From Gammaproteobacteria bacterium (GTDB lineage Bacteria > Pseudomonadota > Gammaproteobacteria > SZUA-152), in the NCBI GenBank assembly GCA_022627515.1, contig JAKEGK010000240.1, positions 1 to 44,255 of the forward strand: 44,255 nt of DNA. The letters are read 5' to 3'. A program made the translations under genes and the position numbers. The notes beneath the pieces were generated by a model. It saw only the letters and a program-made list of their open reading frames with translations, was not told where the DNA came from and ran no database searches. Shown piece after piece: positions 33,991 to 36,457 of this stretch (positions are counted from its first letter, which is position 1; every line of letters begins with the position of its first letter).

Positions 33991-35226
33991 ATGACAAAAA
34001 TCGATAAACAGGATATTCAACGGGAATACGCGTCCATGCAACCAGTGGCCGGCGTGCGTCTCGGCAGCGCTGCGGCCGGGATCAGATACAAGGGGCGTGA
34101 CGATATTGTGTTGTTCGAGCTTTGCGATACCGCGCAAACCGCCGCAATGTTTACTACCAACGTATTTTGTGCAGCGCCAGTTGTGATTGCGAAAAATAAC
34201 CTCGCAAACGCCTCGCCACGTTATCTATTGGTTAATGCGGGCAATGCCAACGCGGGCACCGGGCAACAAGGCATGGATGATGCGAATGCGTGTTGCCATG
34301 CGATTGCTGAATTGGCTGAGTGTGAGGCTGAGCAGGTGCTGCCTTTTTCAACCGGAGTTATCGGACAATATTTACCGGTCGGGAAGATAGTTAAAGCATT
34401 GCCGGCCGCGCTGGACAATCTCAGGGAAGATAACTGGCTTTCCGCGGCCAGGACGATAATGACAACGGATACGGCGCCAAAAGGCGTTACGCGGAAAGCG
34501 GTGATCGATGGGCATGAGATTACGGTGACCGGTATCGCCAAAGGCGCCGGTATGATCTGTCCCAACATGGCGACACTGTTGTCGTACGTCGCAACCGATG
34601 CCGCGTTGCCGGCGGCATTACTGCAAGCAACGCTTGCGCAGGCCGTTAACAAAACCTTTAATCGCATCACCGTTGATGGCGACACTTCCACCAATGATGC
34701 CTGCGTATTGATGGCTACCGGAAAATCCTCGTTGCCATTGATTGATGGAATTGGGAATCCTAACTATAACCGAATGTTAAATCTTGTAACGGAAGTGTTT
34801 GAATTTCTCGCAAAGGCCATCATCCGTGATGCGGAAGGCGCGACCAAGCTGGTTAACGTTACGGTGACGCAGGGAGCGAGCGAGAATGAATGCAAGCAGG
34901 TGGCTTACACCATCGCGCATTCTCCGTTGGTAAAAACAGCGTTGTTCGCCAGTGACCCCAACTGGGGAAGAATCCTGGCCGCGGTGGGCAGGGCGGGTGT
35001 GAGCAAGCTGGATATCCGCAAAGTAAAAATCGAACTCAATGGCGTTTGCATCGTGAGTAACGGTGGAGTCGACGCCACTTATACCGAAGCATTGGGGCAA
35101 CAGGCTATGCAGCCGGCTGATATTGAGATCAATGTTGCATTGGGTAGAGGCAGCGCAACGGCCAATGTCTGGACCTGCGATTTTTCCTATGACTACGTCA
35201 AGATCAACGCCGAGTACCGCACTTGA
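33991..35226 (+). CDS. argJ: Bifunctional ornithine acetyltransferase / N-acetylglutamate synthase ArgJ
   Basis: ArgJ recycles the acetyl group from N-acetylornithine to glutamate in arginine synthesis, and in many species also uses acetyl-CoA. The 411-aa precursor self-cleaves before the Thr of the conserved KGAGMICPNMATLLSYV (about residues 178-194) to give alpha and beta chains. Other family motifs are TNVFCAAPV, LVNAGNANAGTG, DGDTSTNDACVLMATG, HSPLVKTALFASDPNWGRILAAVGRAG and the C-terminal CDFSYDYVKINAEYRT. The ORF is full length. Its position between secA and mutT is seen in other gammaproteobacteria. No clear ArgR box was recognised upstream. Confidence 0.98.
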   Translation: MTKIDKQDIQREYASMQPVAGVRLGSAAAGIRYKGRDDIVLFELCDTAQTAAMFTTNVFCAAPVVIAKNNLANASPRYLLVNAGNANAGTGQQGMDDANACCHAIAELAECEAEQVLPFSTGVIGQYLPVGKIVKALPAALDNLREDNWLSAARTIMTTDTAPKGVTRKAVIDGHEITVTGIAKGAGMICPNMATLLSYVATDAALPAALLQATLAQAVNKTFNRITVDGDTSTNDACVLMATGKSSLPLIDGIGNPNYNRMLNLVTEVFEFLAKAIIRDAEGATKLVNVTVTQGASENECKQVAYTIAHSPLVKTALFASDPNWGRILAAVGRAGVSKLDIRKVKIELNGVCIVSNGGVDATYTEALGQQAMQPADIEINVALGRGSATANVWTCDFSYDYVKINAEYRT

Positions 35227-35245
35227 CGCATTCATCTGAATGCGT
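35226..35245 (+). repeat. Hairpin at the argJ stop codon
   Basis: ACGCATTC (35226-35233) pairs perfectly with GAATGCGT (35238-35245) around an ATCT loop. It starts in the last base of the argJ TGA. There is no T tract after it, so it is terminator-like but incomplete on the plus strand. Confidence 0.6.
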
Positions 35246-35253
35246 GGTTCAAT

Positions 35254-35520
35254 GTCATATGACTCATTGCTGTCCCACAAATATTACTTATAAACAGCAT
35301 AGTCTCCGAGATTTGCAGGGTTTAATGAGTGCTGAAGCTGGTGGAGACATGGATTTACAAAACCGTCGGCGGCAGGGATGCCGCCGTCGAGCTTACAGGG
35401 AAGTATTAACAGCGTGTTTTGTAAATCCATGTCTCCACCAGCTTTTCAAGGCCAAAGATCTGTTGGCATTAGAGAGTCCCTGGTCCGCACTATATTTTGT
35501 GGGACAATAATGCATATGAC
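35254..35520. repeat. Composite nested inverted repeat (MITE-like)
   Basis: The outer arms are GTCATATG...TGTCCCACAAA (35254-35281) and their inverted counterpart TTTGTGGGACA...CATATGAC (35496-35520): two matching blocks of 11 and 8 bp separated by a short unequal spacer. Nested inside is a perfect 29-bp inverted repeat (35335-35363 with 35416-35444), which itself encloses an 11-bp GC-rich hairpin with one mismatch (35364-35374 with 35379-35389). No transposase ORF is present. The right outer arm carries the Shine-Dalgarno-like GGGAC and the start codon of the Nudix-ThiE gene. Identity with a known element family was not established. Confidence 0.8.
35335..35444. repeat. Perfect 29-bp inverted repeat with GC-rich core
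   Basis: The left arm begins AAGCTGGTGGAGACATGG and the right arm ends CCATGTCTCCACCAGCTT; all 29 positions pair. The 52-base interior holds GGCGGCA-GGGA-TGCCGCC, then a single-stranded AGCTTACAGGGAAGTATTAACAGCGT (shown here as one unpaired segment). This asymmetry (hairpin plus unpaired tail within long arms) resembles dispersed palindromic elements of REP or MITE type. Confidence 0.85.
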
Positions 35521-36457
35521 TGACTTGATACATGTTGTGGTTGCCGTGATTCGCAATCCCGCCGGGCAAGTGTTCATTACGCTGCGCCCGGCTCATGTGC
35601 ACCAGGGCGGCCTATGGGAATTTCCCGGCGGCAAAGTTGAGCCAGGTGAATCAGTATCCGATGCGTTGCGGCGGGAAATTCACGAGGAAAATGGTATTGA
35701 TATACTGCGCGCCTTGCCACTCATCAGGATTCCATTTCGTTATTCCGACAAGCATGTTCTGCTGGATGTGTGGGAGGTGCTTGAATTCCACGGCAATGCG
35801 CATGGCAGGGAAGGGCAGGACTGCCGGTGGGTCAGCGCCGATGAACTCGGTCAATTTGCTTTTCCGGCGGCCAACAAAGCCATCATTGCCGCGGTGCAAC
35901 TGCCTGCGGTCTATCTCATTACACCTGAACCAGGCAATAACATACCCGATTTTCTGGATCAGCTTGAGTCACGTCTGGCAAGCGGCACTACGCTACTGCA
36001 ACTGCGGGCCAAACAACTTGAAAGCGAACGTTATATTCGGCTCGCTAACGAGGTAGTTGAATTGTGCCACCGTTATCACGCGACCGTGTTAATGAATGAG
36101 GCGCCGGAGATATTAGGCAAAGTTCCCGCTGATGGTATCCACTTAACGGCCCGGCGATTGATGCAATTGGAAGAAAGGCCAATCTCTCCGGCGTTATGGC
36201 TGGCGGCTTCCTGCCATAGTGTCAGTGAAATCGAGCGGGCAAACCGCCTTGGTGTCGACTTTATTGTGTTATCCCCGGTGAAATCCACCCAAAGTCACCC
36301 GCGTCTGGCCGCGTTGGGCTGGCCCACATTCGGTGACTGGACGGAACATGCCGCCATGCCCGTCTATGCCCTGGGTGGAATGACAATACCGGATATTACA
36401 ACAAGCCGCGAACACGGCGGGCAGGGTATTGCCGGCATCAGCAATCTTTGGGGATAA
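35510..36457 (+). CDS. Nudix hydrolase (MutT) fused to ThiE/TenI-like domain
   Basis: The N-terminal half (about residues 1-130) is a MutT-type Nudix hydrolase, which cleans 8-oxo-dGTP from the nucleotide pool. The Nudix box GGKVEPGESVSDALRREIHEENGI matches GX5EX7REUXEEXGU exactly. The C-terminal half (about 138-315) is a ThiE/TenI-like TIM barrel (LLQLRAKQL, DGIHLTARRL, CHS, VLSPVKSTQSHP, ALGGM). The two Mg-binding aspartates of true thiamine-phosphate synthase appear to be replaced (MNEAPE for ND, LTARRL for GQED), so synthase activity is doubtful. The fusion is known in many gammaproteobacteria next to secA. The track begins at 35378 inside the repeat; the ATG at 35510 or 35516 is the likely start. 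Confidence 0.92.
   Translation: MHMTDLIHVVVAVIRNPAGQVFITLRPAHVHQGGLWEFPGGKVEPGESVSDALRREIHEENGIDILRALPLIRIPFRYSDKHVLLDVWEVLEFHGNAHGREGQDCRWVSADELGQFAFPAANKAIIAAVQLPAVYLITPEPGNNIPDFLDQLESRLASGTTLLQLRAKQLESERYIRLANEVVELCHRYHATVLMNEAPEILGKVPADGIHLTARRLMQLEERPISPALWLAASCHSVSEIERANRLGVDFIVLSPVKSTQSHPRLAALGWPTFGDWTEHAAMPVYALGGMTIPDITTSREHGGQGIAGISNLWG

Follow-up and report, generated by a model that had tools for sequence, protein, structure and literature searches.

The argJ/Nudix-ThiE intergenic region is best explained, with a probability of about 0.85, by the insertion of a MITE, a short non-autonomous element with terminal inverted repeats (TIRs), that carries a YPAL-type core with two GGA hairpins and would fold over the start of the Nudix-ThiE gene. 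The window, that is the whole stretch of DNA that was analysed, comprises 44,255 nt (contig JAKEGK010000240.1, forward strand, of the Gammaproteobacteria bacterium (SZUA-152) assembly GCA_022627515.1). This kind of repeat is already known through the core of the Yersinia YPAL/RU-2 repeat; its breadth, its use on several MITE chassis, the inversion of the core, the G·U asymmetry of its arms, and its double CsrA-like apex appear to be undescribed in the literature searched.

The insertion itself is virtually certain. A perfect 9-bp direct repeat, CATATGACT (35256-35264 and 35513-35521), bounds a non-coding unit of 248 bp (35265-35512) that starts with CATTGCTGTCCCACAAA and ends with TTTGTGGGACAATAATG, and it identifies the outer arms as the TIRs of an insertion. 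The TIRs, which were also seen in other genome copies, are 17 bp long with 15 of 17 positions matched (35265-35281 on the plus strand, 35496-35512 on the minus strand), and the outer arms are prolonged beyond them by 35254-35269 and 35505-35520. Inside lie a perfect 29-bp inverted repeat (35335-35363 and 35416-35444) and the arms of a GC core (35364-35374 and 35379-35389; 10 of 11 positions paired). The original prediction had placed these structures, together with a hairpin at the argJ stop codon, in a 283-bp gap, as nested repeats that cover the Nudix-ThiE start. All four are present; the outer arms, the 29-bp repeat, and the GC core do belong to the element, but the argJ-stop hairpin (35226-35245, plus strand; a perfect 9 bp, 35226-35234 and 35237-35245) lies outside the duplication-bounded unit and belonged to the site before the insertion. 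The predicted folding energy of the region is -139.2 kcal/mol, whereas shuffled sequences give -92.0 +/- 5.1 (z = -9.3).

In relatives, which are without the element, the Nudix-ThiE gene directly follows argJ, and the distance from the argJ stop to its start is mostly 0-50 bp. Removal of the element and one duplication leaves a gap of 32 bp here, an empty site reconstructed from the target-site duplication and from relatives that are about 50% identical in protein; the data searched contain no exact empty allele. None of the named Nudix-ThiE loci has the core. Insertion into CATATGACT just 3' of argJ duplicated 9 bp that include the Nudix-ThiE start codon. A perfect 10-bp palindrome, GTCATATGAC (35254-35263), overlaps the insertion point; YPAL has been reported to target dyad symmetry.

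The element is not unique. About 25 copies are found in its own draft genome (4.45 Mb in 312 contigs), and the 248-bp unit shows the hallmarks of a MITE: TIRs, a target-site duplication, many copies, and no coding capacity. Among the 21 copies with both ends paired, the flanking 9-mers agree at seven or more of nine positions in 17 and perfectly in four, whereas agreement at this level is expected by chance in about 0.1% of cases by our own arithmetic. With these copies, the TIRs, the 9-bp duplications, and the short argJ-Nudix gaps of relatives, the earlier suggestion of a non-autonomous mobile element proves essentially correct. It would probably move with the help of a transposase that recognises its 17-bp ends in trans. 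A search of the draft genome and 113 others for a parent transposase or autonomous IS with these TIRs found none; within the own genome the TIR pairs found lie only about 110-300 bp apart, and the sole PF01609 transposase carries an internal stop.

Two kinds of rearranged copies were also seen. Three copies of 126-140 bp (L052, L062, and L195, on contigs C84, C248, and C223) have neither arms nor core; their three different junctions point to independent hairpin deletions, and one of them is perhaps the ancestral empty MITE. A chimeric element (L071, 1380-1550) joins the left half of a TAGAACC chassis to the right half of the window MITE at the hairpin apex, and its right end still corresponds to the TAGAACC right repeat.

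The centre of the MITE is almost certainly a YPAL-type hairpin module, in which a 52-nt core with two GGA-loop hairpins stands atop long inverted arms. In the window the core (35364-35415, plus strand) forms a predicted three-way junction with hairpin 1 (35364-35389, loop AGGGAT at 35374-35379) and hairpin 2 (35390-35415, UAC-AGGGAA-GUA, loop at 35397-35402), their GGA triplets being 20 nt apart; the two 29-bp arms enclose it. The core behaves as a separate module. In its own genome it recurs between different arms and within different outer repeats, on at least four chassis with unrelated terminal repeats, the window family included; other examples are TAGAACCTATCTCAAAATT, GGAATGGCGCTTACTTAAGCA, and TTATAACTCAAGTTTCGGAGTTC, and the GGAATGGCGCTTACTTAAGCA chassis has its own perfect 9-bp duplication, GGTATGAGA. 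When 274 gammaproteobacterial genomes were sampled with a covariance model (R1) built from 15 core copies, 49 of them, from 44 genera, gave matches. Copy number ranges widely even within a genus, with 134 copies in genome G260 and three in its congener G295; at about 73% DNA identity this pair was too divergent for an empty-site test to resolve junctions. The arms measure 18-49 bp; their sequence varies between copies while complementarity is kept. We rejected the idea that each insertion copies its arms from the target, since homology among most arms of a genome can still be recognised despite their rapid change.

Some core copies show further arrangements. In five (L006, L012, L015, L017, and L024) hairpin 2 has been remodelled and includes an additional hairpin of the TTCTTTTCGAAACAAGAA type, and in G260 eight of nine neighbouring copies less than 700 bp apart stand in divergent (- +) order, 166-426 bp from each other, like REP/BIME dimers. 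An exact-pattern scan of viral contigs gave only three matches to the core, and the consensus core had no convincing match in phage and plasmid records. The Yersinia core matched a single YPAL-type locus in 15 plasmid records; there it adjoins an iron-containing alcohol dehydrogenase gene (L303, L304, and L305). The plasmids that carry it are enterobacterial, IncN and IncR among them, and for the most part come from waste water.

The printed 168-nt Yersinia RU-2 (YPAL) sequence holds the core CGTCCGCGCCAAGGATGGCGCGGCTCGAGCCTACATGGATGTATTTACGGCGT between complementary arms (PMC2759123), and the window element almost certainly carries a core of this type. Both elements are intergenic and multicopy. 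However, YPAL, a palindrome of about 168 bp that was recently mobile, has no TIR and is flanked by variable duplications of 3-26 bp (PMC2229807), whereas the window core sits with its own arms in a TIR-bounded MITE with a fixed 9-bp duplication, and the outer sequences of the two are unrelated. The TIRs and the fixed duplication thus make the window element a carrier of a YPAL-type core but not a YPAL element. Most Yersinia genomes have 37-144 copies of YPAL (PMC2847712), and few annotated "sRNAs" are as abundant as the Rfam family Ysr224 (PMC9029176). Its model (RF02770) hits the window on the antisense strand with 37 bits (E = 4e-7), below the gathering score. Ysr224 corresponds to the antisense strand of the YPAL repeat, and its high counts probably reflect a dispersed repeat.

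Other repeat families offer partial parallels. ERIC, Correia/NEMIS, and RUP are, like the window MITE, short, non-coding, and intergenic elements near genes, with TIRs, target-site duplications, and a strong RNA hairpin; their sequences are unrelated to it, and the literature searched does not describe them as having an exchangeable module at the centre in which GGA loops are conserved. REP/BIME repeats (GTAG- and CGTC-tagged) share with the module a palindromic form, enrichment at gene 3' ends, and close inverted pairs, but are single hairpins of 20-40 bp, whereas the module has about 110 bp, a three-way-junction core, and no GTAG tag.

The structure of the core is backed by strong covariation. 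Across 33 copies from about 30 genomes, in an alignment fitted to the model structure and hence biased towards it, 97.9% of cells are paired and double changes occur at 27 of 30 pairs, with the arm helix covarying at 14 of 14; none of 500 shuffles matched this, slid controls also fell far below, and an independent MAFFT alignment of 15 copies gave the same picture of pairing. GGA is present in loop 2 of all 33 copies and in loop 1 of 32, one copy being without the A. Both hairpins have ANGGAN loops with an invariant closing C-G, mainly the two N positions varying; a few first loops contain short insertions or have their first A altered, and in nearly all copies about 20 nt separate the two GGA triplets.

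The core is also asymmetric between strands and can be inverted. When the strand is set by the GGA, arm mismatches are G·U in 50 cells and A·C in 13 (p = 3e-6), cells that are not fully independent and to which a C-to-T mutation bias on the transcribed strand could contribute; the G·U excess is seen in 13 genomes and the reverse in one. This bias indicates folding of one of the two strands, be it as RNA or as single-stranded DNA. If the outer halves of the MITE are taken as reference, the core stands one way in six copies, the window copy among them, and reversed in 17. In three close sister pairs of MITEs (tree support 0.95, 0.90, and 0.73) the two cores point in opposite directions; one such pair is formed by the window copy and its nearest relative, which lies on contig C153. 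Flipping of the segment enclosed by the arms has therefore occurred repeatedly. The genes flanking the core are convergent in 20 cases, in << order in 17, in >> order in 10, and divergent in six. Relative to these genes the core has no preference for the sense orientation (>> and << compared), which argues against a general role in host mRNAs.

The alternative that survives best, and that we consider a serious contender at somewhat less than even odds, is that the core acts at the DNA level, as a single-strand hairpin recognised by a transposase (HUH/RAYT-like) or by a replication template switch, any RNA effects being by-products. The want of orientation bias to genes fits it, as do the near-perfect arms that change symmetrically and the inversion of the core between them, which is expected of template switching or of inverted-repeat recombination. 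It also agrees with YPAL having been reported beside dyad symmetry with 3-26 bp duplications (PMC2229807). However, the preference for G·U over A·C favours RNA more than single-stranded DNA, though G·T pairs in the latter could give the same sign; the assignable copies show no leading/lagging-strand bias (60 vs 51); and conservation of just the GGA in the loops is without a known DNA counterpart.

Of special interest on the RNA side is CsrA/RsmA. SELEX with CsrA gave the consensus RUACARGGAUGU, ANGGAN hexaloops, and a bridging optimum above 18 nt (PMC7652899). By sequence and covariation, the core has the ANGGAN hexaloop hairpins expected of a CsrA/RsmA site, which ideally come as two within 10-63 nt; with their C-G closure and spacing of about 20 nt, they match the published site. 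Binding of CsrA by the core is accordingly conceivable, at a little under even odds, although the stem of hairpin 1 is longer than CsrA favours in SELEX (PMC7652899). CsrB/RsmY-type RNAs and the TwoAYGGAY motif resemble the core in their paired ANGGAN/AYGGAY hairpin loops, but the core is no dedicated sRNA gene and is dispersed in many copies; no Rfam family of these kinds matched the window at E<1.

A more tentative proposal, which we rate at about one in three, is that the module serves as a CsrA/RsmA decoy with a regulatory role at such loci: transcribed copies would titrate CsrA, or its binding would protect or destabilise the host transcript. The loops, their invariant closure, and their spacing speak for it, in agreement with the SELEX consensus, hexaloop, and bridging optimum. 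Against it, the match is at the level of sequence, we found no literature linking CsrA to YPAL, and many copies are antisense to the flanking genes. Co-occurrence is uninformative here, csrA being present in 45 of 49 core-positive and 190 of 225 core-negative genomes; one genome that is 98% complete (G218) has nine core copies and no listed csrA match. Rather unlikely is the widest form of the idea, in which a modular RNA cassette, strand-specific, spread through the class, and bearing two CsrA/RsmA sites, rides on unrelated small mobile elements, its insertions setting invertible CsrA-responsive switches or sponges beside genes across the Gammaproteobacteria, the Nudix-ThiE copy included.

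At the locus itself, the MITE insertion alters the surroundings of the Nudix-ThiE start. The right TIR, as had been noticed, contains GGGAC and ends in an in-frame ATG (35510-35512). The original prediction that the element supplied or captured the start site stands as far as this added ATG and GGGAC are concerned, but the native ATG (35516-35518) is already part of the target duplication: the Nudix-ThiE proteins of relatives align from this second ATG (MTDL...), with which the gene begins (35516-36457, plus strand, MTDLIHVVV...). The frame is also open back to an ATG in core hairpin 1 (35378-35512; MPPSSLQG...CGTIMHMTDL), a possible 46-residue N-terminal extension from the element, comparable to RU-2 as described by Delihas. 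No sigma-70 promoter was found in the element.

Thermodynamic folding supports the proposal that outer-arm pairing hides the start. In the ensemble computed for 37 C, positions 35499-35520 of the filled site are unpaired with a probability of at most 0.01, except 35507 and 35508, whereas in the reconstructed joined empty site the native ATG is predicted to be about 100% unpaired; as folding predictions, these values could be altered by co-transcriptional folding, argJ ribosomes, and RNA-binding proteins. The argJ-Nudix transcript would fold as one long hairpin hiding GGGAC and both ATGs, and occlusion of the start in RNA is reasonably probable; ThiE translation may thereby be lowered or made conditional, and about 120 nt upstream the element would offer two sites of the CsrA/RsmA type. 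A regulatory role of the element at this locus, the further part of that proposal, is nonetheless improbable, at around one chance in four. A dedicated translation switch (riboswitch or thermosensor) for this thiamine-related gene, suggested by the predicted burial of its start, is highly improbable and largely refuted by copy number, since the same sequence lies at dozens of unrelated loci; in addition, relatives are without it, and no TPP riboswitch, thermosensor, or other cis-regulatory Rfam family matches the region at gathering score. On the copy number and this Rfam result we also rejected a unique regulatory leader.

These results tie an obscure Yersinia repeat, YPAL, which has been counted as the abundant "sRNA" Ysr224, to a structure that occurs in 44 genera, and they suggest a concrete candidate ligand for it. 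If CsrA binds the core, hundreds of dispersed repeats would join the Csr network. If it does not, this strand-specific, invertible, and self-correcting hairpin would be a good system in which to study the spread and upkeep of palindromic repeats.
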